A DNA stretch of 64,000 nucleotides from contig NZ_QQAW01000006.1 in the NCBI RefSeq assembly GCF_003350405.1, positions 124,001 to 188,000 of the forward strand, in the 5' to 3' direction. The DNA is from Gluconacetobacter liquefaciens. Its GTDB lineage: Bacteria; Pseudomonadota; Alphaproteobacteria; Acetobacterales; Acetobacteraceae. This document shows positions 52,921 through 64,000 of the stretch, piece by piece. Under the pieces are notes generated by a model. That model was not told the DNA's origin, made no database searches, and saw nothing but the letters and a program-made list of their open reading frames with translations. Both the position numbers and the translations under genes were made by a program. Positions within the stretch are counted from its first letter, which is position 1. Each line of letters opens with the position of its first letter.

Positions 52921-55900
52921 ATGCATAACAGTTCGACGTCCGAGCCCAAGACCACTACTCGGGATGAGCCCATCGCCATCATCGGCGCATCCTGCCGCCT
53001 TCCCGGGGCGCCGGACGTTAACAGCCTGTGGCAGCTGCTGGACGAGGAACGCGAAAGCGTGCGGCCGATCCCGGAGAATCGCTTTCCATTACGGGATTAC
53101 TGGCATCCTCGTCGCGGCGAGACGGGCAAGTTCTATGCCACCCGTGCCTCCACCCTGGACGAGATTGAACTGTTCGATGCCGCCTTTTTCGGCATTTCGG
53201 CCCGCGAGGCCCGACAGATGGACCCGCAGCAGCGGCTGTTGCTGGAACTGGCGTGGGAAGCCCTGGAAGACGCCGGCACGACGGCGGAGCGCGTCGCGTC
53301 GGCCGGTGTGTATGTCGGTGCGTCGGGCCTGGAATATGCCAATCTGCGCCTGACCGACCCCTCGTCGGGCAATGCCTATTTCATGCCCGGCAACACGCTG
53401 AGCATCTTCTCCAATCGCGTGTCGTACGCGCTGGGCCTGCATGGGCCGAGCATGACCATCGATACGGCGTGCTCGTCGTCGCTGTTCGCCCTGCATGAGG
53501 CTTGCGAGGACCTGCGCGCCGGCCGGACGAGCGTGGCGCTGGTCGGTGGTGTCAGCATGCTGCTGACGCCCTATCCCTTCATCGGGTTCTGCGCGGCGAG
53601 CATGCTGTCCCCGACCGGGCGCTGCCACGCCTTCAGTGCCGATGCCGATGGCTATGTCCGTGGCGAGGGTGGCGTCATGCTGCTGCTCAAGCCGTTGTCG
53701 GCGGCGCGGCGGGATGGCGACGATGTCCGCGCGGTCATCATGGCCAGCGGGATCAATGCCGATGGACGGACGCCGGGGCTGACCTTCCCCAGCGCCCAGG
53801 CCCAGGCCGACCTGTTGCGCGAGGTTTATGATCGGGCCGGCGTCTCGCCGGATCAGATCGCCTTCGTGGAGGCCCACGGCACCGGCACCCAGGCGGGAGA
53901 TCCGGTCGAGACGACGGCGCTGGGCAAGGCCCTGGGCCAGTTGCGCGCAACGGCGCTGCCGATCGGCTCGATCAAGACCAATCTCGGCCATCTGGAACCG
54001 GCATCGGGCCTGGTCAGCATGTTGAAGGCCATGCTTGCGCTCCAGAACCGACGCCTGCCGGCCTCGCTGCATTGCGCGAACCCGAACCCGGCCATTCCCT
54101 TCGCCGAGCTTAATCTGGAAGTCGTCACCGAGGCGCGTCCGCTTGACGATGGCCCGCTGATTGCCGGTGTCAATAATTTCGGTTTCGGCGGCGCCAATGC
54201 CCATGTGGTTCTGGCCAGCGCGCCGATCGAACCGGCAGACGCGCCGGTCGCCGTGCCGGCGTCGGACGATGCTGTGCCATTGCTGCTATCCGCGCGCTCC
54301 GAGGCTGGTCTGGCCAGTCTTGCGCGGGTCTGGTCCACGCGGACCTGGACCGATTCCGAACTGCGCGGCCTGGCGACCCGACGCGCCCACCTGCCGCATC
54401 GTCTGGGTGTTCCTGGCGGGGATGCGGCGGAGATGCGCGCGGCGTTGGCGACGTGGGTGGAGACCCGCGCCCAGACCGATGTCGTCACCGGACAGGCCCT
54501 TGCACAGGCGCGCACCGTCTTTGTCTTTTCCGGCAATGGCAGCCAGTTCTCGGGCATGGGGCAGGATCTGCTGGAAATCAGCCCCGTTTTCGCCGCCGGG
54601 GTGGCGGAGGCGGATGTGGCATTGCGTCCGCATCTCGGCTGGTCGGTTCTGGAGGCGATGCGCTCGGGCGACTGGTCGGCCGATCCGGCCGATGTTGCGC
54701 AGCCGATGCTGTTTGCGTTCCAGATCGGCGTTCTGCGCGGGTTGGAACGGCAGGGACTCAAGGCCGACATCGTCGTTGGCCATAGCGTCGGGGAAATCGC
54801 GGCCGGGGTGCATGCCGGCATGCTGGAGATGGACGAGGCCGCGCGCATCGTTGCTCTACGCAGCCGCCATCAGGCGACCGCGCCCGGCGGTGGCATGATC
54901 GCGCTCCATGGCGATGCCGAAGAGGCACGGCGGCTTCTGGCCGAAGCCGGGCCGACGCTGGAGATTGCGGCCTTCAATGCACCCAACGCGCTGGCGGTGG
55001 CCGGCGAGGCCGACGCGCTGGACCGACTGGAGGCGGCGAAGGGCAGCTCGTCGCTGCTGATCCACCGCCTGAAGGTGGGGTATGCGTATCATAGCAGCCA
55101 CATGGACCGGATTGCCGAGGCGCTGATCCGCGATCTGGGTGCGATCACCGCACGCCAGCCTGAGCGGCTGATGATCTCGACCGTGACCAGCCAGCCTTTC
55201 ACGGTGCTGCCCGATGCCGATTACTGGTGGCGGAATGTCCGCGCGCCGGTGCTGTTTGCGGAATCGGTGCGTCAGGCGTCGGCCGAAGGGGGCTCGGTCT
55301 TTATCGAGATCAGCCCCCGTCCGGTCCTTCAACATTATCTGCGCGACATTCTGCGCGGTGGCGATACGCAGTCGCGCGTGATGCCGGCCGTGCCGGCCAA
55401 GATTACCACCGACCCGTTCCCGCGCACCGCGCTGGCATGTTTTGCGGCGGGCTGCGACATTCTGTCCGCGGCGCATTTCGCAGGACCTGCCCATGTGCGG
55501 GGCCTGCCCGGCGTGCAGTGGCAGCGCGAGCGGCATTGGTACGAACCGACCGAGGAAGCGCTGGCGGTGCTGTGGAACCAGCAGGGTACGCATCCCCTGC
55601 TGGGCGGCCATGGCAAGACGGATGCCAGCGAATGGACCGCGCATCTGGATGGAGCGGTGCAGCCCTGGCTGGCCGACCACAAGGTGGGCGAGACGATCGT
55701 TCTGGCGGCCGCCTGCCTGATCGAATTCGCCTTTACCGCCGCGCGGGCGACGTGGCCCGAGGCCGAGATTCTGGAATTGCGCGATTTCCAGATCCTGCGT
55801 CCGGTGATCATCGAACAGACGCAGTTGCGCGAGATTCGGGTGCGATTGGGGGCAGACGGCGCTGTGACCATCGACAGCCGGCCCCGGCTGTCGCAGGCGG

Positions 55901-58900
55901 TCTGGACGCGCCATGCCACCGCCCGTGCCGGCCTGTCGCCGGTCGCGCCTGCGGCCCTGCCGGCGGCCGCGACCGATACCGACATGACCGGTGATGCGCT
56001 CTATGCCATCGCGCGTGCTGCCGGACTGGCTTATGGACCAGCCTTCCGCCGTGTCGGTGCGATCTCGATGGCCGAGGGGCGGGTCGAGGCGACCCTGACG
56101 GGCGCGGCGCCGCTCGACGGGCTGACCCTGGACCCGACGGCGCTGGACGGGACTTTCCAGGCGCTGGTCGGGTTGGCGGTCAACCATGCCGATGCGGCCG
56201 AAGCGCCTCTGCCGCGCAAGTTCGGCGTGATCCGGCTGGACCTGTCGGCCGGGCCCGCTGCCCGGGGACAGGCTGCCGTTACAACGTCCGGCCCGCGCGA
56301 GACCGAGGCCGATATCGTGATGCTGGATGCTACCGGCCGCGCCGTGCTGTCGGCAACCGGCTGCTGGTTTACCCGCATGCCGGGCGAACGGCCGGTGCCG
56401 GTCGCCGAGCGCAGTTTCCACGAGATCTGGCTGCCGTCTCCCGTGGCGTCGGCTCCGCTGTCCGACGAGCGGTTCCTGGCGCTGCGCCCGGCCATGGAAA
56501 CGCCGGCCGGCGATGCGGACGACAAGGATGCCGGGCTGCTGGCTCATACGATCCTGTCTGGTCAGTCTTCGCCGACCGGGGATGCTCCGGATACCGCGCG
56601 GTTGTGGCAGACGCTTTTCCTCGACCTGCCGCAATGGCTGCCGGCGGCGTTGCTGCTGGCGTGGATCGACGAGCGGAAGAATGCGGCGGTCGCCGCCGAC
56701 GATGCGTTCCCCGACGTGGCGTTCCGGCAGTTGCTATCCGGCCGCAGTGTGGAACTGGCGGCCGAGCAGATCGCGACCACCATCGCGGCCTATGCGCAGG
56801 ACTGGCCGCAGGACCGCCCGCTGCGCGTGCTGGAACTGCACGCCGACCGCGCCGCGCTGACGCGGCAGCTTTTGCCGCGTCTGGCAGACCTGCCGGGCCG
56901 GCTGGACTACACGATCCTGGAGCCGAACCGCGAGCGGCAGGCGCGGTTGCGGCCGACCGTGCTGGCACATCTGCCCGGCATCGTCATGGCCGAGACCGTG
57001 CCGGCGGGCGCGTATGACGTGCTGGTTGCCTATGCACCCGGCCTGCACGGCCAGGTGCCGGCGGCGACGCTGGCCCATGCCGATCGTCTGGCGCCGGGCG
57101 GCCTGATCCTGGTGGTGGAAGCCGCCGAGGATGCCGGCTGGGCCACGTTGCGCGACCTGTCGCCCGAGCCGCTACTGACGATCGGAGCCTGGCGCGACCT
57201 GCCGCACCGCCTGCGCGCGGTGGCGGAAAGCGTGCCCGCCCAGGCGCCCTTCCCGCTCGCCCTGCTTGCGGCGGTCGCGATCGACGCAGAAGAAGCCGAG
57301 GTTGAAGCCGTCTCGGCGGCGCCGGTGATTCGCCTGTCGCATGCTCCCGGGCAGGCTGCCGGGGATGACACCGCGCGGACCGCCCAAGCGATGCTGGCCC
57401 TGGCCCGTGACGCCCGTGCCGCCGCCGAGGCCGGGGAGTGCCTCGCAATCGTGACCCGCGATGCGGCGACCACGCCGCATGAGGCCGCACGTGTCGCGCT
57501 GGGCCGGACGATCGCCAACGAGTTCCCTGCCCTGCGCTGTCGCCGGATCGACCTGTCCGCCGGCCTGTCGGAGACGGCGGTTGCGGCGGCGCTGGACGCG
57601 GAGCGCAATGCGACCGATGACGAGCGCGAAGTGCGCTGGACGGCAGACGGACGCTTTGTGCGCCGCCTGCGCGAGGGCCTGCCGGCCCGCGCCGCTGGTC
57701 CGAAGGAAGATGTTCGACTGATTCAGCCCGTGCCCGGCCCGCTGGACCGGCTGTGCTGGATGCCCGAGCCCAGGGTTGAACCCGGCCCGCGCGACGTGGT
57801 GATCGACGTGCAGGCCAGCGGCCTGAACTATCGCGATGTGCTGTCGGCCATCGGCATGTTGCCCGACGAATTGCTGCTGGACGGTTTTGCCGGTGCCACG
57901 CTGGGCATGGAATGCGCGGGGACCGTGCTGGCGGTGGGTGCGGAGGTGACCGACCTTGCCCCCGGCGACCGGGTGATGGCGCTGGCTGCCGCCGCCCATG
58001 CCAGCCGGGTGGTGACCGACCGGCGCAGCGTCTTCGCGCTGCCGGAATGGTTGTCTTTCGCGGCGGGTGCGACCATCCCCGTGACGTATCTGACCGTGCT
58101 CTATGCGCTGGAGACCGTTGGCCAGTTGCGGGCCGGCGAGACGATCCTGATCCATGGCGCGGCCGGCGGTGTCGGTCTGGCGGCCATTCAGTACGCCAGC
58201 CATGTCGGCGCACGCATCATCGCCACCGCCGGCTCGCCCGCCAAGCGGGCGGCCCTGCGCGAACTGGGGATCGAGACCGTGCTGGACAGCCGGTCGCTGC
58301 GCTTCGGGGCCGATGTGCTGGCCGCGACCGGTGGGCAGGGCGTGGATGTGGTGCTGAATGCCCTGAGCGGCGAGGCCATGGAGCGCAGCCTGGAACTGGT
58401 GCGCCCGTTCGGCCGCTTCCTGGAACTGGGCAAGCGCGACTTCCTGGCCAATACGCGCGTCGGCATCGGCCCGCTGCGACAGAATGTCAGCTACCATGCG
58501 ATCGACGTGGATGCGCTGGTGCGGCACCGGCCGGACCTGGTTTCGACCGTGACCGACCGCCTGCATACGCTGCTTGAGGACGGGGCGATCGGGCCGCTGC
58601 CCTATACCGCTTTCCCGGCCTCGGCCGCGACGGATGCGTTTGCGCTGATGCGGACCTCGGCGCATGTCGGCAAGATCGTGCTGACGATGGGGCCGGTGCA
58701 TGTGCCGCCCGCGCTGGATGTGCCGGCCGACCGCACCATGCTGGTGACGGGCGGGACCGGCGGCTTCGGCGCACGGGCCGCGCGGTGGCTCGTGACCCGT
58801 GGAGCGCGCCATCTGGTGCTGGTGAGCCGGCGTGGACCGGCGGCCGAAGGTGTGGCGGCGTTGCGCGAAACGCTGCTGGAGGCCGGCGCCCGGACCGTGG

Positions 58901-59943
58901 AGGTGCGGGCCTGCGACGTGACCGACCATGCGGCGCTGGCGGCGCTGATTGCCGAGATCCGCGCGACCATGCCGCCTCTGGGCGGGATCGTGCATGCCGC
59001 CGTCACGGTGGCGGACGGGCTGGTGGCGACGCTGTCCGAGGAACAGGTGACGGCTTCGGTGCAGGCCAAGCTGGCCGGCGCGCTGTCGCTGGACGCACTG
59101 ACGCGGGATGATCCGCTGGCGCTGTTCCTGGTCTTCTCGTCCGCCACCATCACGCTCGGCGCGCCGGGCCAGGGTGCCTATGTGGCGGCCAATGCGGCGG
59201 TCGAGGCGCTGATCCAGCGCCGGCGCGATGCGGGGCTGCCCGGTTGCGCCGTGCGCTGGGGGCCGATCGGCGATGCCGGCTTCCTGGAACGCAACGAAGC
59301 GGCGCGCGAGGCGCTGGACCGGCGGCTGGGCGCGCGCTCGATGCGCTCGATGGCCGCGCTGGATGCCCTGCCCGACCTGCTGGCTTCCTCCGACCCATGG
59401 CCGGTGCTGGCGGAAATGGACTGGCAGGCCACGGGCAGCCTGCCGATTCTGAGCGAACCGTTGTTCGGCGCCGTGGCGCGGCGCCGGGACGAGGACGGCG
59501 ATAGCGGCGACCTGATGAGCCTGCTGGCCACGGCCACCGAGGAACGGCGGGAAGAGATCGTCGCCGACCTGATCCTGGGTGAACTGACCCGCATCATGCA
59601 GACCGACCGCGAGGCCCTGCCCCTGGACCAGCCGCTGGCTGAACTGGGCATGGATTCGCTGACGGCGGTCGAACTGGCGCTGGGGCTGGAACGCCGGCTG
59701 GGCGTGTCGCTGCCCGGTTTTGCCTGGCAGGAAATGACGGTGCGGCGCGTTGCGCGCCAGGTCTCCACCCTGCTGGGCAACAAGGGGCAGGAAACCGCCG
59801 CCACCACGCCGGACGAGGCGGTGATGGCGCGCCATCTGGCCTCGGACGAGGAACGGAACGTGGTGGTCGAGGCCGGCGAGGTTGCCGAAGGGACCGGGAC
59901 GCCCGAGCCCGTGTTTTCGAACGAAGAAGAAGCGACTCGATGA
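52921..59943 (+). CDS. Iterative highly reducing type I polyketide synthase (RkpA-like)
   Basis: From the ATG at 52921 the protein has 2340 residues. KS (about 15-440): Cys184 in DTACSSS, His319 in EAHGTGT, His357 in KTNLGHLE. AT (about 535-830): Ser622 in GHSVGEI, and YAYH at the specificity motif. DH (about 890-1160): His920 in ADHKVGE, Asp1076 in LDPTALDGTF. Degenerate methyltransferase region (about 1230-1420). ER (about 1605-1925): GAAGGVGLAA near 1746. KR (about 1935-2170): TGGTGGFG, Ser and Tyr in VFSSATITLGAPGQGAYVAAN in pieces. ACP: Ser2246 in GMDSLTAVEL. There is no thioesterase. A full reducing loop means a saturated fatty-acid-like chain. It overlaps the alpha-oxoamine synthase gene (ATGA), the likely release enzyme. 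Confidence 0.92.
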   Translation: MHNSSTSEPKTTTRDEPIAIIGASCRLPGAPDVNSLWQLLDEERESVRPIPENRFPLRDYWHPRRGETGKFYATRASTLDEIELFDAAFFGISAREARQMDPQQRLLLELAWEALEDAGTTAERVASAGVYVGASGLEYANLRLTDPSSGNAYFMPGNTLSIFSNRVSYALGLHGPSMTIDTACSSSLFALHEACEDLRAGRTSVALVGGVSMLLTPYPFIGFCAASMLSPTGRCHAFSADADGYVRGEGGVMLLLKPLSAARRDGDDVRAVIMASGINADGRTPGLTFPSAQAQADLLREVYDRAGVSPDQIAFVEAHGTGTQAGDPVETTALGKALGQLRATALPIGSIKTNLGHLEPASGLVSMLKAMLALQNRRLPASLHCANPNPAIPFAELNLEVVTEARPLDDGPLIAGVNNFGFGGANAHVVLASAPIEPADAPVAVPASDDAVPLLLSARSEAGLASLARVWSTRTWTDSELRGLATRRAHLPHRLGVPGGDAAEMRAALATWVETRAQTDVVTGQALAQARTVFVFSGNGSQFSGMGQDLLEISPVFAAGVAEADVALRPHLGWSVLEAMRSGDWSADPADVAQPMLFAFQIGVLRGLERQGLKADIVVGHSVGEIAAGVHAGMLEMDEAARIVALRSRHQATAPGGGMIALHGDAEEARRLLAEAGPTLEIAAFNAPNALAVAGEADALDRLEAAKGSSSLLIHRLKVGYAYHSSHMDRIAEALIRDLGAITARQPERLMISTVTSQPFTVLPDADYWWRNVRAPVLFAESVRQASAEGGSVFIEISPRPVLQHYLRDILRGGDTQSRVMPAVPAKITTDPFPRTALACFAAGCDILSAAHFAGPAHVRGLPGVQWQRERHWYEPTEEALAVLWNQQGTHPLLGGHGKTDASEWTAHLDGAVQPWLADHKVGETIVLAAACLIEFAFTAARATWPEAEILELRDFQILRPVIIEQTQLREIRVRLGADGAVTIDSRPRLSQAVWTRHATARAGLSPVAPAALPAAATDTDMTGDALYAIARAAGLAYGPAFRRVGAISMAEGRVEATLTGAAPLDGLTLDPTALDGTFQALVGLAVNHADAAEAPLPRKFGVIRLDLSAGPAARGQAAVTTSGPRETEADIVMLDATGRAVLSATGCWFTRMPGERPVPVAERSFHEIWLPSPVASAPLSDERFLALRPAMETPAGDADDKDAGLLAHTILSGQSSPTGDAPDTARLWQTLFLDLPQWLPAALLLAWIDERKNAAVAADDAFPDVAFRQLLSGRSVELAAEQIATTIAAYAQDWPQDRPLRVLELHADRAALTRQLLPRLADLPGRLDYTILEPNRERQARLRPTVLAHLPGIVMAETVPAGAYDVLVAYAPGLHGQVPAATLAHADRLAPGGLILVVEAAEDAGWATLRDLSPEPLLTIGAWRDLPHRLRAVAESVPAQAPFPLALLAAVAIDAEEAEVEAVSAAPVIRLSHAPGQAAGDDTARTAQAMLALARDARAAAEAGECLAIVTRDAATTPHEAARVALGRTIANEFPALRCRRIDLSAGLSETAVAAALDAERNATDDEREVRWTADGRFVRRLREGLPARAAGPKEDVRLIQPVPGPLDRLCWMPEPRVEPGPRDVVIDVQASGLNYRDVLSAIGMLPDELLLDGFAGATLGMECAGTVLAVGAEVTDLAPGDRVMALAAAAHASRVVTDRRSVFALPEWLSFAAGATIPVTYLTVLYALETVGQLRAGETILIHGAAGGVGLAAIQYASHVGARIIATAGSPAKRAALRELGIETVLDSRSLRFGADVLAATGGQGVDVVLNALSGEAMERSLELVRPFGRFLELGKRDFLANTRVGIGPLRQNVSYHAIDVDALVRHRPDLVSTVTDRLHTLLEDGAIGPLPYTAFPASAATDAFALMRTSAHVGKIVLTMGPVHVPPALDVPADRTMLVTGGTGGFGARAARWLVTRGARHLVLVSRRGPAAEGVAALRETLLEAGARTVEVRACDVTDHAALAALIAEIRATMPPLGGIVHAAVTVADGLVATLSEEQVTASVQAKLAGALSLDALTRDDPLALFLVFSSATITLGAPGQGAYVAANAAVEALIQRRRDAGLPGCAVRWGPIGDAGFLERNEAAREALDRRLGARSMRSMAALDALPDLLASSDPWPVLAEMDWQATGSLPILSEPLFGAVARRRDEDGDSGDLMSLLATATEERREEIVADLILGELTRIMQTDREALPLDQPLAELGMDSLTAVELALGLERRLGVSLPGFAWQEMTVRRVARQVSTLLGNKGQETAATTPDEAVMARHLASDEERNVVVEAGEVAEGTGTPEPVFSNEEEATR

Positions 59944-61226
59944 CAGGACCGAAATTCGGCCGACGGCTGGGCGAACGCATCAAGCTGCTGGCCAGCCTGT
60001 CGGGCAGCGCACCGGCGGAGAGCAGCACGCGCGGCTGGTCGCTGCCGGGCGTGGAGGAAATGGAGTTCATCGCCAAGCGGGCGGCGGCGCTGGGCGTCTC
60101 CGACCCGTTCTTTCGCCAGCATGACGGGTTGGCCGCCGCCACGACCCTGATCGACGGGCGGGAATACATCAATTTCTCGTCCTACGATTATCTGGGGCTG
60201 AATGGTGATCCGCGCGTCATCGCCCAGGTGGAAAAGGCCCTGCACCGCTACGGCACGACGGTTTCCGCCAGCCGCATGGTCTCCGGCGAACGGCCGTTCC
60301 ATCGGGAACTGGAGCGGGCGCTGGCCGACTGGCATGGTGCCGAGGATTGCGTGGTGATGGTGTCGGGCCACGCGACCAACGTGACCACGCTGGCGCAGCT
60401 GATGCGGCCGGGCGACCTGATCATCCATGATGCGCTGGCTCATAACAGCCTGATCCAGGGCGCGATCCTGTCGGGCGCGCGGCGCATTGCGTTTCCGCAT
60501 AACGACGTGGCGGCGGCGCGCGAGCAATTATGGATGCACCGCAGGGCGCACAAGCGCGCGCTGCTGGTTCTTGAAGGCCATTACAGCATGGATGGCGACA
60601 TCCCTGATCTGGCGGCGTTCGTGGAGCTGGCCCGCGAGTTCGACTGCATGACGCTGGTGGACGAGGCGCACTCGACCGGCGTGCTGGGCGCGCGCGGGCA
60701 TGGCATTGCCGAAGAGACCGGTGTGCCGCCCGACTCGATCGATCTGTGGATGGGCACGCTCAGCAAGAGCCTGATCTCGTGCGGCGGCTACATTGCCGGC
60801 CGGGCCGATATCATTACCTACCTGAAGCGCACCGCCGCGGGCTTTGTCTATTCCGTCGGCCTGCCGCCGACCAATGCGGCGGCCTCGATGGCGGCGCTGG
60901 ACATTATCCGCGAGGAACCCTGGCGCATCGCGCGCCTGCGCGAGAACGCGACGCTGCTGCTGCGTCTGTTCCGCGAGGCCGGTTTCGATACCGGGACCTC
61001 GGAAGGCTACGGCATCGTGCCGCTGGTCACCGGCAGTTCGCTGCTGGCCGGCCGGCTGTCGCAGGCGCTGTTCGAACGCGGGCTGAATGTCCAGCCCATC
61101 ATCCACCCGGCCGTGCCGGAGAAGGCGGCCCGGCTGCGCTTCTTCGTCAGCGCCTCACACACGTCCGGGCAGATCGAGCAGACGGTCTCGATCGTGACTC
61201 AGGCGCTGCGCGCCCTGTCGGAATAG
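59940..61226 (+). CDS. Alpha-oxoamine synthase (AONS/SPT family, RkpG-like)
   Basis: The 428-residue PLP enzyme belongs to the family of 8-amino-7-oxononanoate synthase, 2-amino-3-ketobutyrate ligase and serine palmitoyltransferase, which condense an amino acid with an acyl thioester with loss of CO2. NFSSYDYLGLNGDPRV, SRMVSGERPFHRELE, LVDEAHSTGVLG and the PLP Lys in GTLSKSLISCGGYI are intact. It has an extra N-terminal stretch of about 55 residues. Translational coupling to a thioesterase-less PKS suggests that it releases the polyketide chain as an amino-ketone. The amino acid used cannot be told. A biotin role is unlikely, as no other bio genes are near. Confidence 0.88.
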   Translation: MTGPKFGRRLGERIKLLASLSGSAPAESSTRGWSLPGVEEMEFIAKRAAALGVSDPFFRQHDGLAAATTLIDGREYINFSSYDYLGLNGDPRVIAQVEKALHRYGTTVSASRMVSGERPFHRELERALADWHGAEDCVVMVSGHATNVTTLAQLMRPGDLIIHDALAHNSLIQGAILSGARRIAFPHNDVAAAREQLWMHRRAHKRALLVLEGHYSMDGDIPDLAAFVELAREFDCMTLVDEAHSTGVLGARGHGIAEETGVPPDSIDLWMGTLSKSLISCGGYIAGRADIITYLKRTAAGFVYSVGLPPTNAAASMAALDIIREEPWRIARLRENATLLLRLFREAGFDTGTSEGYGIVPLVTGSSLLAGRLSQALFERGLNVQPIIHPAVPEKAARLRFFVSASHTSGQIEQTVSIVTQALRALSE

Positions 61227-62419
61227 GCTGACAATATCCGCCGCACCGAGCCCTCGACCGCGAGGGCTCGCCCCTCGGGGGTGAAGAAATCGCCTTCGAC
61301 CAGGACTTCCTGGATCAGCATGCGGCAGAACGCATCGAGCAGTTCGGCATCGGGCCTGCTGGCCTCGCGCCAGAAGAGATCCAGCGGTTCCTGGAACGTC
61401 AAGCCCGGAACGTCGTAGATCGCTTCGCCCAGAATCTTGACCGGGCGGTTGCGCCGCAGGGCGAGCAGCCCGACCGTGCTGTTGACCGTGACGATCCCTT
61501 CGCTGGCGTCCAGCACGGGTTCGAGCAGGCCCTCGGCCATGAAATAGACCCGTGCCGCAATGCCCAGAGCGCGCGCGCGCTGGGTGATCAGCCCTTCCCA
61601 GTCCATCAGGCGCGGATCGAGCGGATGGCGGCGGACGACCAGGGAGAGCGTGTCGGGCGCATGCGCGGCGAAGGAGGCCAGGATCTGTTCCAGTGCCTCG
61701 GCCATGCCGCGAAACGGCGAATGGACCCGCAACTGGTAGTCGCCATCCAGTTGCATCGGCACCAGCATGAACGGCCCCTGGGGCAGGATCGCGTCCTTGG
61801 GCTTGCGCACAAGGCGCCCCGTCCAGTCCCGCAGCCACCCTGCATATTCCACGAACGGACTGACCGCCGCATGGAAACGCGCGTGGGGAAACAGCGCCGT
61901 CATGGCCACGCGCAGGCCGTGATAGGAGACATCGTAGACCGCGCGCCGCAGGAAATCGGAATGAGGCTCGTAATGCATGGGGGGCCACGGTGCCTGGCCC
62001 CGTTCGCGGATATGCGCGGCATCGCGCGGCAGGGCCGAAAAGCCGTTGACGCCATGGGGCTCCAGCGTGATCCAGCCGGGCCTGAGATAGCCTTCCTCGA
62101 ACACCCAGATGGCGATGCCGTGCGCGCGCGCGATTTCGGTTGCCACGAGATGAATCGGGCGGCAGTCGCCGAACAGGATGATCGCATCCGGCTTGTCGGC
62201 GGCGATGATCTTTTCGAGGAAGGCAGGCAGGGCGCGCTCGCGCCCGCGAAACCATGTGACATCGTGCGAAAAGACGACGTCGCCGCCATTGAAAGCAATG
62301 CGGCGGACATGATGGCCGGCAGCCCGGAGCGCAATCGCCAGTTCGGAAAAGAACGGCGTGGCATTCCCTTGCAGCATCAGAAAACTTAGCAAACCGTTCC
62401 CACCTTCCCCATCCGTCAC
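61199..62419 (-). CDS. kpsS: Capsule polysaccharide biosynthesis protein KpsS (RkpJ-like)
   Basis: The 406-residue protein (Capsule_synth family) contains LMLQGNATPFFSELAIAL, RRIAFNGGDVVF, VFEEGYLRPGWITLEPHGVNG in pieces, FMLVPMQLDGDYQLRVHSPF, VVRRHPLDPR and VTVNSTVGLLAL. KpsS starts the beta-Kdo linker on the lipid anchor of group 2 type capsules; KpsC extends it. The start is a GTG at 62419 with a weak site; a TTG about 8 codons later after GGAAGGTGGG is possible. Its 3' end overlaps the convergent alpha-oxoamine synthase gene by 28 bp. Confidence 0.9.
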   Translation of the reverse strand: MTDGEGGNGLLSFLMLQGNATPFFSELAIALRAAGHHVRRIAFNGGDVVFSHDVTWFRGRERALPAFLEKIIAADKPDAIILFGDCRPIHLVATEIARAHGIAIWVFEEGYLRPGWITLEPHGVNGFSALPRDAAHIRERGQAPWPPMHYEPHSDFLRRAVYDVSYHGLRVAMTALFPHARFHAAVSPFVEYAGWLRDWTGRLVRKPKDAILPQGPFMLVPMQLDGDYQLRVHSPFRGMAEALEQILASFAAHAPDTLSLVVRRHPLDPRLMDWEGLITQRARALGIAARVYFMAEGLLEPVLDASEGIVTVNSTVGLLALRRNRPVKILGEAIYDVPGLTFQEPLDLFWREASRPDAELLDAFCRMLIQEVLVEGDFFTPEGRALAVEGSVRRILSAYSDRARSA

Positions 62420-62454
62420 ATGAACGCCCCATGGCGCGCCTGTCCGCGATACCG

Positions 62455-63699
62455 CTATGGCCCGTTTCCGCAGTCGATTACGGCCAGGGCGGCGAGGCCG
62501 GCCACCACCTGGGTCGGCCAGTCGGCGAATGACGGGGGTGCCTGGGCGGCCGCCCCCCTGTCATGCCCGCACCGTTCGCGGATCGCATGCCGCCAGCCGG
62601 GGCCGTCCAGAGGGTCGAGATAGACCGGCAGGTCCCCGGCGATTTCGCGAAAGACCGGCAGGTCGCTGCACAGGCACGGAACGCCCATTGCCAATGCTTC
62701 CAGCAGCGGAAGGCCGAACCCTTCGGCAAATGACGGGAACAGCAGCGCACGCGCACCCCGGACCAGCCCCGCCACGGCCTGATCGGATAACGTGGCATGT
62801 TCGTGTACGACCCCCTGCAAGGCGGGGCATCGTTCGATCATGTCCAGGATGTTTTCGTTTTCCCATCCGCGTCGGCCGATGATCACCAGATGCGGCAGGG
62901 GCGTGGCGCCGCCCTCCATCGCCATCTGGCGCCACAGATTCAGCAGCAGAAGGTGGTTCTTGCGCGGCTCGATCGTGCCCAGGATCACGAAATAAGGGGC
63001 GTCGGGCACCAGATTGCCCACCGATGCCGGAACATTGGATGGGACAAGGCAACCGTGATGCACAACGCCGACCGGCGGACAATGCCCGTGGGGCGCCAGA
63101 TAATCCCGCAATGCCTCATCGACCGGCCGGGAGGGTACGATCACGCGCTCCGCCAGCCGCCCCACGGTATCCATGCGCCGGCGATGGCGGTCGGGTTCGG
63201 TCGGGCGGGCATATTCGGGGTATTCGATCGGGATCAGGTCGTGGACCATGACCGCCATCGTGGCATCGGCCCGTTTCAGAAAAACCTCGATCACGTCGTC
63301 GCGCATCAGGTGATGATGCGAAAGCAGCAGATAGGTCCGGCGGTGTTTCGCACGGCCAGCGGCCCCGAGGGCCGCAGCCTGCAACAGCAGCCCGGCCAGC
63401 AGCGACGCCGTGCGCGACGGCCGCGTGCCGCCCGCCCAGGCCCGTGCGAGGATGCGCAGGAAACGATCGGTCAGCCGGCGCGGCAGGAGGCCGATGCGCC
63501 CGACCGGATGAAAGGCCACGAACATGACCTGGGACGCGGGAAAGCGCATGAGATACAGCGCATATTCCAGTTCCACACGGTCGATCCCCGTCGGCACGGC
63601 GCTGCCGGCGCGCGACAGCAGACGGGAGATATCCATCAGAACCGGACGGGGCAGTATCTCGGCCGGCCGTCGCGAACCGTGCACCACACTGCCGCTCAT
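62455..63699 (-). CDS. Glycosyltransferase family 4
   Basis: The 414-residue protein has the two-domain GT-B layout: MVHDLIPIEYPEY in the N-terminal half, then YFVILGTIEPRKNHLLLLNLW at the domain junction and SFAEGFGLPLLEALAMGVPCLCSDLPVFRE in pieces, with the Glu-x7-Glu donor-sugar motif. This resembles mannosyl- and other hexosyltransferases of surface polysaccharides. The ATG at 63699 overlaps the kpsC stop (ATGA), so it is coupled to kpsC; open frame further upstream lies within kpsC. It probably adds a sugar to the capsule repeat or linker. Confidence 0.88.
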   Translation of the reverse strand: MSGSVVHGSRRPAEILPRPVLMDISRLLSRAGSAVPTGIDRVELEYALYLMRFPASQVMFVAFHPVGRIGLLPRRLTDRFLRILARAWAGGTRPSRTASLLAGLLLQAAALGAAGRAKHRRTYLLLSHHHLMRDDVIEVFLKRADATMAVMVHDLIPIEYPEYARPTEPDRHRRRMDTVGRLAERVIVPSRPVDEALRDYLAPHGHCPPVGVVHHGCLVPSNVPASVGNLVPDAPYFVILGTIEPRKNHLLLLNLWRQMAMEGGATPLPHLVIIGRRGWENENILDMIERCPALQGVVHEHATLSDQAVAGLVRGARALLFPSFAEGFGLPLLEALAMGVPCLCSDLPVFREIAGDLPVYLDPLDGPGWRHAIRERCGHDRGAAAQAPPSFADWPTQVVAGLAALAVIDCGNGP

Positions 63700-64000
63700 G
63701 CGGGGCGGGCCGACCGGACGCGCGCCCATGCCTTGCGCAGCGCCGTCTGCGCGGCCAGCGCGCGCATCCATGGCGTGGGGCGCCACAGGCCGGGGGTTTG
63801 CAGACGGTCGATCAGAACTTCCGGGCCGCAGGGCAGTCGCGTAACCGGGTCGAGATAACGCGGAAACAGAATCAGCACTCCGGCAACGAGGTCTTCCAGG
63901 GTCAGGCGCCGTGTCCGGCGTGCGGGAACATCCCCCAGGTCGACCGTCAGCCCCCACCCCGCATAGAACGGCGCGCCATAGGTCACAACCCGCCGTCCGC
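63696..64000 (-). CDS. kpsC: Capsule polysaccharide biosynthesis protein KpsC, C-terminal fragment (5' end off the window)
   Basis: About 101 codons are open from the window edge to the stop at 63696. They read GRRVVTYGAPFYAGWGLT near the edge, then RRTRRLTLEDLVAGVLILFPRYLDP, PEVLIDRL and a basic C-terminus. This is the end of the second glycosyltransferase module of KpsC, a dual beta-Kdo transferase that extends the Kdo linker of lipid-anchored capsules. No start belongs to it in the window. It leads a run kpsC, GT4, kpsS. Confidence 0.85.
   Translation of the reverse strand, partial: GRRVVTYGAPFYAGWGLTVDLGDVPARRTRRLTLEDLVAGVLILFPRYLDPVTRLPCGPEVLIDRLQTPGLWRPTPWMRALAAQTALRKAWARVRSARPA

Follow-up and report, generated by a model that had tools for sequence, protein, structure and literature searches.

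We report that a gene pair of Gluconacetobacter liquefaciens, encoding a one-module polyketide synthase (PKS) and a pyridoxal phosphate (PLP)-dependent alpha-oxoamine synthase (AONS), probably has a role in making a capsule lipid. The pair lies in the window, i.e. the whole 64,000-nucleotide stretch of DNA that was analyzed (positions 124001-188000 of contig C6 of a 4.17 Mb genome), where it faces genes for Kdo transferases of the KpsS and KpsC types. Coordinates refer to the window unless preceded by a contig or locus name; G- and L-codes denote surveyed genomes and loci, L005 being a stretch of contig C6 and L011 that of Sinorhizobium meliloti Ak57 pSymB. The reading that we favor, and consider rather probable, is that the AONS product is a long-chain amino-ketone that is N-capped, perhaps reduced, and used as acceptor by KpsS.

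The PKS–AONS pair and the facing kpsS gene

The AONS (59940..61226, + strand) is of the RkpG type and matches the AONSs of five rkp-like loci at 48-53%. It belongs to a clade of PKS-linked AONSs (SH-aLRT 95, in a tree built by a quick method with SH-aLRT support and no bootstrap), and residues H168, D241, H244 and K276, which have catalytic roles in the family, are invariant in 10 aligned sequences. The nearest solved chains are serine palmitoyltransferases (SPTs; 3a2b and 8guh, 231 bits). Assignment as an SPT was nevertheless rejected, the protein scoring below three curated models (303 of 640, 270 of 500 and 219 of 670 bits), while the true SPT of the genome (C4:3988) passes its curated cut-off (624 of 500 bits) and sits outside the AONS clade in the tree. 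Also rejected were BioF (352 of 426 bits on the curated model; a better candidate at C9:76963 reaches 418 bits, itself slightly under the cut-off), ALA synthase (curated cut-offs, and a separate ALA synthase gene at C6:80656) and KBL (by score only). The AONS is a fourth paralogue beside the ALA synthase, SPT and BioF-like protein of the genome. The SPT, with an AMP-ligase, a DAGK-like kinase and an LptF/G protein as neighbors, occupies a conventional sphingolipid-type cluster of its own. Since the PLP residues of the AONS are kept and a true SPT is encoded separately in the same genome, a further amino-lipid besides lipid A and conventional sphingolipids, as proposed in the initial annotation of this DNA, is plausible.

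The PKS (52921..59943, + strand, with an open frame that begins upstream at GTG 52705) is of the RkpA/WcbR type. Pfam matches delineate KS, AT, DH, ER, KR and ACP domains, and none to a thioesterase was obtained at E<=0.001. DH and ER are separated by a degenerate, methyltransferase-like stretch. The KS Cys/His/His, AT (GHSVGE), ER, KR (YVAAN) and ACP (GMDSL) motifs are intact; in the DH motif the His is present and the usual Pro is replaced by Ala, as in G. aggeris. Because of this Ala, the PKS is likely rather than certain to be fully reducing, as the initial annotation had called it. The remainder of the arrangement described there was confirmed, namely the lack of a thioesterase match, the ATGA at 59940-59943 common to the PKS stop and the AONS start, and the convergent kpsS–GT4–kpsC genes. 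The protein matches the PKSs of five rkp-like loci at 36-43%, each alignment being in two pieces, and the locus is of the rkp-1/wcb type, with a one-module, reducing type I PKS akin to the rkp-like ones. Pairing of PKS and AONS is more than chance, because a related PKS accompanies the AONS in 76 of 80 loci from named genomes, these being the best 80 of 586 stretches that encode an AONS, and in 52 of the 56 that are at least 15 kb long. In three loci the PKS, or part of it, is fused in frame to the AONS (L026 1683-10205, from G178, an Acetobacteraceae genome; L013 5569-13167, from Planktothrix; L012 11311-16134, from Streptomyces), an arrangement that would fit a hand-over of the chain from PKS to AONS.

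On the opposite strand, kpsS (61199..62419) is convergent with the AONS gene, and the 3' ends of both genes overlap by 28 bases. It encodes a KpsS/RkpJ-type Kdo transferase (PF05159, E 1.9e-74) that reaches 231 bits against a cut-off of 600 on the NCBIfam KpsS model and matches KpsS-like proteins of five other loci at 39-41%. Export genes for Wza, KpsE, a permease and an ATPase lie at C3:405901-409978 of the same genome.

Co-occurrence of AONS and capsule genes

We surveyed 249 Acetobacteraceae genomes (hereafter, the family), calling AONS at 294 bits or above (next match 216). AONS was found in 80 genomes and PF05159, the KpsC/KpsS family, in 96. The co-occurrence that the initial annotation had proposed to survey holds in most AONS-positive genomes: PF05159 is present in 66 of the 80 AONS-positive vs 30 of the 169 AONS-negative genomes (Fisher p 4e-23, uncorrected for kinship). 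The distance between AONS and PF05159 in the 66 genomes is within 10 kb in 56 and 10.6 kb in one; two genomes have them far apart on the same contig (G127, G011) and seven on other contigs. They are clearly unlinked in G127, G011, G059 and G006, while G047, G105 and G115 end on short contigs (5-16 kb). SPT was found in 14/80 AONS-positive genomes, in 24/30 with PF05159 and no AONS, and in 44/139 with neither, so that SPT or AONS occurs in 90/96 kps-positive vs 58/153 other family genomes.

In a phylum sample of 398 genomes, AONS was found in 23, PF05159 in 59 and both in 15 (counted by eye). The best 80 stretches of named genomes include Nitrosomonas europaea, Bordetella, Burkholderia lata, Ralstonia pickettii, Halomonas, Pseudomonas and many Methylobacterium. 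Among the 56 long loci (15 kb and upward), Kps genes were detected in 30, LTA-type genes in 14, SDR genes in 15 and export genes in 20; any of Kps, LTA or export genes was detected in 45, and no capsule gene by these three kinds of probe in 11. A tblastn search of plasmids matched 374 records, nine of the best of which were read. AONS matches of 48-55% lie on plasmids of Methylobacterium, Paraburkholderia, Caballeronia, Shinella, Pseudomonas and S. meliloti (pSymB). Each of these six loci holds a PKS, an SDR and an LTA-type gene, and five a KpsS-like gene, which was not found in the Caballeronia stretch; a number of the genes carry no annotation and came to light through tblastn.

KpsS itself sorts by AONS presence. 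Indeed, in a tree of 66 KpsS proteins, three labels need 5 changes vs 23.4 when shuffled. In G006, the AONS of which belongs to a subclade without adjoining kps genes (see below), KpsS groups with those of AONS-less genomes, a grouping that would fit a KpsS matched to its lipid.

Amine-modifying and LTA-type neighbors

AONS loci were searched with probes for amine-modifying proteins (formyltransferase, tandem GNAT, small GNAT, LpxC-like protein and a GNAT from the own genome), with 49 kps-positive, AONS-negative loci as controls (29 from the family and 20 from outside), in which distance was taken from KpsS. A probe matched within 4 kb of AONS in 25/40, 4/4, 5/20 and 25/80 loci, i.e. 59/144 in total, or 50/135 after the nine loci that supplied the queries were dropped, and within 4 kb of KpsS in 0/29 and 0/20 controls. 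Anywhere in the locus, the counts are 31/44, 6/20 and 27/80 (64/144) for AONS loci vs 0/49 for controls; six locus pairs have identical AONS stretches and are hence not independent. We regard these neighbors as the best evidence for a free amine on the AONS product, which is probably nitrogen-bearing and sphingoid-like.

In ten family loci, the gene between AONS and KpsS was scanned, giving five formyltransferases (PF00551), one weak GNAT match and four without a match. A 373-393-aa protein found at this place in four of the ten forms one family, labeled GNAT by some sources. The model of a relative from L147, built from 40 homologues, has a tandem GNAT fold (pLDDT 93.3), and the first 17 matches of a fold search with it are GNAT acetyltransferases (best 2wpw, 7q3a and 5kf1, TM 0.55-0.63). 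The own-genome GNAT had a single match among solved chains by phmmer, at E 0.27.

Amine-modifying genes also accompany AONS where the PKS is missing. Acidisoma and G010 combine an AONS of a separate clade (SH-aLRT 99) with SDR, GNAT, sterol desaturase, LTA-type, KpsC and KpsS genes, and no PKS was found in their AONS stretches. In G105 the genes are split over two contigs, AONS, SDR and GNAT being on a short one and KpsS, KpsC and the LTA-type gene on the other; G056 has AONS-SDR-GNAT and no PF05159. The genome of the window carries an SDR-GNAT pair without AONS at C3:302877-305017, which shares the layout of these PKS-less loci (SDR 51% to the AONS-linked SDR of Acidisoma, GNAT 54% to G056) and is a candidate for the reductase and capping enzyme of the pathway. 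The amine-modifying neighbors and the PKS-less AONS-SDR-sterol desaturase-GNAT loci in kps clusters thereby lend indirect support to the claim of the initial annotation that the pair makes a sphingoid-like amino-lipid.

Two related observations were made along the way. In Burkholderiaceae an LpxC-like deacetylase lies between PKS and AONS (L007 13980-14894, L008 13904-14830, L127, L178, L179, L184 and L219) and is followed in most by a GNAT. A sterol-desaturase-family gene occurs in 14 of the 29 family kps clusters without AONS (L081, L084, L087, L090, L091, L094, L100-L103 and L105-L108); its product may hydroxylate the capsule lipid.

An LTA-type (RkpI-like, PF00884) phosphoglycerol transferase gene lies beyond the window, 7 kb away, at C6:192022-193518 (L005:6023-7519). 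Its product matches LTA-type proteins of five other loci at 28-35%. A profile of these proteins has GacH as best match (E 9e-26), followed by LtaP and LtaS (LtaS 5e-10; the single protein alone gave 0.0019), and E228, T269, D436 and H437, presumed to be catalytic as in LtaS, are invariant in nine sequences. Kinship to GacH/LtaS and presence of the catalytic residues are thus both borne out.

As a marker of AONS loci the LTA-type gene had to be discarded: it is found in 24/29 kps-positive, AONS-negative loci of the family (and 2/20 outside) and is missing from 16 of 21 chosen AONS-positive genomes. SPT passes the cut-off in 23 of the 24 family genomes concerned (the exception being G132) and in 2/2 outside, vs 1/18 (G350) of those outside the family that lack the LTA-type gene; G099 and G199, of one genus, have neither. 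The resulting table (25/1/1/19, p 9e-11) is uncorrected, comprises few independent lineages and leaves out three short contigs without the LTA-type gene (G009, which has SPT, G074 and G087). In the absence of AONS, capsule loci bear the LTA-type gene almost only alongside a genomic SPT, and all nine LTA-positive genomes among 55 examined have kps genes plus either AONS or SPT. In each of the 16 LTA-less AONS genomes, the locus encodes a formyltransferase or a tandem GNAT, and KpsS belongs to the second clade. Mutual exclusion of the LTA-type gene and amine-modifying neighbors was rejected, both being present in G104, G237 and G127 (formyltransferase) and G028 (tandem GNAT).

Alternatives, known systems and proposed pathway

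A number of observations weigh against an N-capped, sphingoid-like acceptor. Fourteen of the 80 AONS-positive family genomes lack PF05159; several are fragmented, and five are listed as 99-100% complete (G096, G203, G056, G031 and G076). Export-type genes lie near AONS in two of the PF05159-less genomes, G171 and G076. One AONS subclade (G096, G128, G178, G203 and G006, with L134 and L137; SH-aLRT 100) resides in PKS-AONS-SDR loci without adjoining kpsC or kpsS, which rules out the pair as diagnostic of capsule; the locus of L137 nevertheless holds KpsE- and ABC-type genes, and six neighbor proteins scanned across four loci of the subclade vary by locus. The survey counts are, moreover, clustered by ancestry. 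Eighty-five of the 144 AONS loci have no amine-modifying neighbor by the probes used. In Gluconacetobacter no linked RkpH-like SDR was found (tblastn, cut-off E<=1e-8, over the window and a further 17 kb; SDR probes in 19-20 kb of three congeners), nor was an N-capping gene in the window plus 17 kb or, with N-capping probes, in the loci of the three congeners. The C3 pair is itself only a candidate, and C1 holds a second SDR candidate. The LTA-type gene is absent genome-wide at E<=1e-40 from 16 of 21 AONS- and kps-positive family genomes tested, these 16 having been picked because their loci already showed no such gene; because of this absence, a phosphoglycerol step cannot apply throughout. 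With this fold, LTA enzymes work outside the inner membrane, whereas KpsS works inside, which complicates the order of the phosphoglycerol and Kdo steps. Finally, the poly-Kdo of S. meliloti 1021 reportedly has a phospholipid anchor (Fraysse 2005), which may be an ordinary glycerolipid. Phosphoglycerol with a hydroxy-C28 acid has reportedly been described for it.

The latter point leads to the first of three alternatives, according to which an otherwise ordinary lyso-phosphatidylglycerol anchor receives an unusual acyl chain, very long or hydroxylated, from the PKS, and the AONS-fold protein is an acyltransferase that hands the chain over. The reported phospholipid anchor would suit it. So would two published statements, namely that rkp-1 products make and modify a lipophilic carrier or lipid anchor (PMC3557214, PMC4881576) and that the acceptor of E. 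coli KpsS is phosphatidylglycerol (PMC11666461). We consider this alternative unlikely: the invariant PLP lysine, aspartate and histidines of the AONS point to amino-acid chemistry, amine-modifying neighbors occur at 59/144 AONS loci vs 0/49 controls, and AONS is kept with SDR and GNAT in PKS-less loci.

An amino-lipid would lose its best evidence if the formyltransferases and GNATs acted on amino sugars of the capsule, in which case they would say nothing about the AONS product. The nearest solved chains of the formyltransferase are indeed the ArnA formyltransferase domain and a sugar N-formyltransferase, and several of the top fold matches of the tandem GNAT act on glucosamine. However, both enzymes adjoin AONS, lying between AONS and kpsS where inspected, and are absent from all 49 AONS-less kps loci, although amino sugars are presumably part of those capsules as well; the GNAT also adjoins AONS in PKS-less loci. 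We therefore give this explanation, too, only a small chance. Least probable is a free aminolipid or signal (an alpha-aminoketone) that has an envelope function of its own, the pair adjoining capsule genes since envelope genes cluster: it would account for the subclade without adjoining kps genes, for the 11 long named loci and for Streptomyces and Planktothrix, in which the AONS forms a fusion with parts of a PKS and the annotation shows no kps gene close by (the initial annotation had named such occurrences as evidence against its proposal, and to that extent they tell in part against it), but not for KpsC/KpsS in 66/80 AONS-positive genomes, at least four of them clearly unlinked, for the KpsS phylogeny that tracks AONS presence, with G006 among the AONS-less, or for rkp-1 mutants being described as KPS-deficient (PMC4881576).

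As a separate observation, a gene for an LRR-Roc-COR-TIR protein (L028 4496-7336, G203) lies near one of the PKS-AONS loci without kps genes.

Comparison with known systems shows the locus to be of the Sinorhizobium rkp-1 kind (RkpA, G, H, I and J), a kinship that the initial annotation had recognized and that holds: both have a large PKS/FAS, an AONS, and KpsS-like and LTA-type proteins. In S. meliloti Ak57 pSymB (L011) the order is PKS-AONS-SDR-LTA-KpsS (LTA by tblastn), the order to be expected of rkpA-G-H-I-J, names that the record does not use. By contrast, the locus of the window has convergent kps genes with an inserted GT4 gene, a kpsC of one module and no linked SDR, and its LTA-type gene lies 7 kb off, beyond the window. 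The wcb clusters of Burkholderiaceae and relatives (WcbR PKS) are similar in that PKS-AONS, an LTA-type gene and an SDR occur on plasmids of Paraburkholderia and Caballeronia, the former also having a KpsS-like gene; they differ by the LpxC-like deacetylase between PKS and AONS in both and the small GNAT after AONS in Paraburkholderia, absent here. With E. coli group 2 capsules the locus shares KpsS and KpsC homologues and the Wza/KpsE/ABC export genes (here on C3), whereas E. coli KpsC has two modules; that system is not known to have a PKS, AONS or LTA-type gene. In the fungal fumonisin type, an AONS releases a reducing-PKS chain onto an amino acid, but our locus is bacterial, its PKS has one module and its context is capsular. 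Sphingolipid synthesis of Caulobacter (SPT, CerR and bCerS) resembles the proposed route by AONS-family condensation from acyl-ACP, a reductase and a cytoplasmic N-acyltransferase (PMC11324152, PMC11087976); unlike in bacterial sphingolipid synthesis, the acyl donor here would be the PKS, and the SPT of the genome lies outside this AONS clade. Lastly, the swf clusters of sponge symbionts have a mono-modular PKS/FAS and were once filed with wcb/rkp, while their partners are a reductase/sulphotransferase and a radical SAM protein, AONS being absent from the swf gene list in the abstract of PMC3908369.

From the genes, their intact catalytic residues, the conserved gene set and its co-occurrence with kps, all directly observed, we infer every chemical step of the following pathway as well as the order of the steps. 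A long acyl chain would be built by the PKS on its own acyl carrier protein. As the PKS has no thioesterase, the translationally coupled AONS would take the chain off in a PLP-dependent reaction that condenses it with a small amino acid, most likely serine, to give a 2-amino-3-ketone; such use of a PKS-bound chain is reasonable because proteobacterial SPTs favor an acylated carrier protein (PMC11324152). The amine would be capped, by a formyltransferase or tandem GNAT in relatives and by the C3 GNAT beside the SDR as the candidate here, and an RkpH-type SDR would probably reduce the ketone. The sphingoid-like lipid would then be the acceptor for Kdo from KpsS and the one-module KpsC, and the capsule grown on it would be exported by the Wza-KpsE-ABC system encoded on C3. 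In this subtype the GacH/LtaS-type enzyme encoded outside the window may add phosphoglycerol, mimicking the lyso-phosphatidylglycerol end used by classical KpsS; a phosphoglycerol-sphingoid anchor is a possibility that we hold tentatively. Equally tentative is a generalization in which many Proteobacteria would carry ABC-exported capsules on a sphingoid-like base that is made by a PKS and N-formylated or N-acylated, rather than on phosphatidylglycerol, with phosphoglycerol added at the C1 hydroxyl by GacH/LtaS-type enzymes in one subtype, KpsS adapted, and SPT supplying the base in AONS-less acetic acid bacteria.

The lipid-carrier idea for rkp-1 is already in print (PMC3557214, PMC4881576), where the product is called simply a lipid carrier or lipophilic molecule. 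A literature search, whose scope did not extend to most subscription literature, turned up no report of a capsule lipid that is sphingoid or made by an AONS. The new support provided here is comparative. The locus is akin to the known rkp-1 kind and its chemistry would be new if confirmed, the comparison offering a concrete product class and partner enzymes (N-formyltransferase or tandem GNAT, SDR and phosphoglycerol transferase). If the proposal is true, there would be a second family of capsule anchors beside phosphatidylglycerol, the acceptor choice of KpsS would vary by clade, and sphingoid lipids would act as capsule primers.

The remaining genes of the locus lie beyond kpsS. Outward from AONS, the order is kpsS, GT4, one-module kpsC, epimerase, a second GT4, the divergent PF00884 (LTA-type) gene and rml-kind genes. 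The GT4 glycosyltransferase gene between kpsC and kpsS (62455..63699, - strand; PF00534 E 3.4e-16, scanned on a longer GTG frame to 63957) is joined to kpsC by another ATGA overlap between the kpsC stop and the GT4 start (TCAT on the + strand at 63696-63699). Most of kpsC lies past the end of the window, which holds its 3' part (63696..64000, - strand); the remainder was taken from the same contig, the whole gene spanning 63696-65372 in window numbering. Its product (PF05159) has one module and is nearest to the beta-(2->7) type, which agrees with the beta-(2->7)-linked, lipid-anchored poly-Kdo of S. meliloti described in PMC5539429. In the system described in PMC11666461 and PMC10148158, KpsS begins on phosphatidylglycerol and KpsC alternates two linkages.

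Within the genus, the AONS of the window is 95-96% identical to those of G. aggeris, G. takamatsuzukensis and G. tumulicola. Gluconacetobacter tumulisoli has a related PKS-AONS pair (L144 2811-19745; AONS 75%) with a KpsS-like gene (44%), adjoining KpsE-ABC-Wza genes and no convergent kps genes, and, judging by this locus, the capsule part seems to have been exchanged within Gluconacetobacter.

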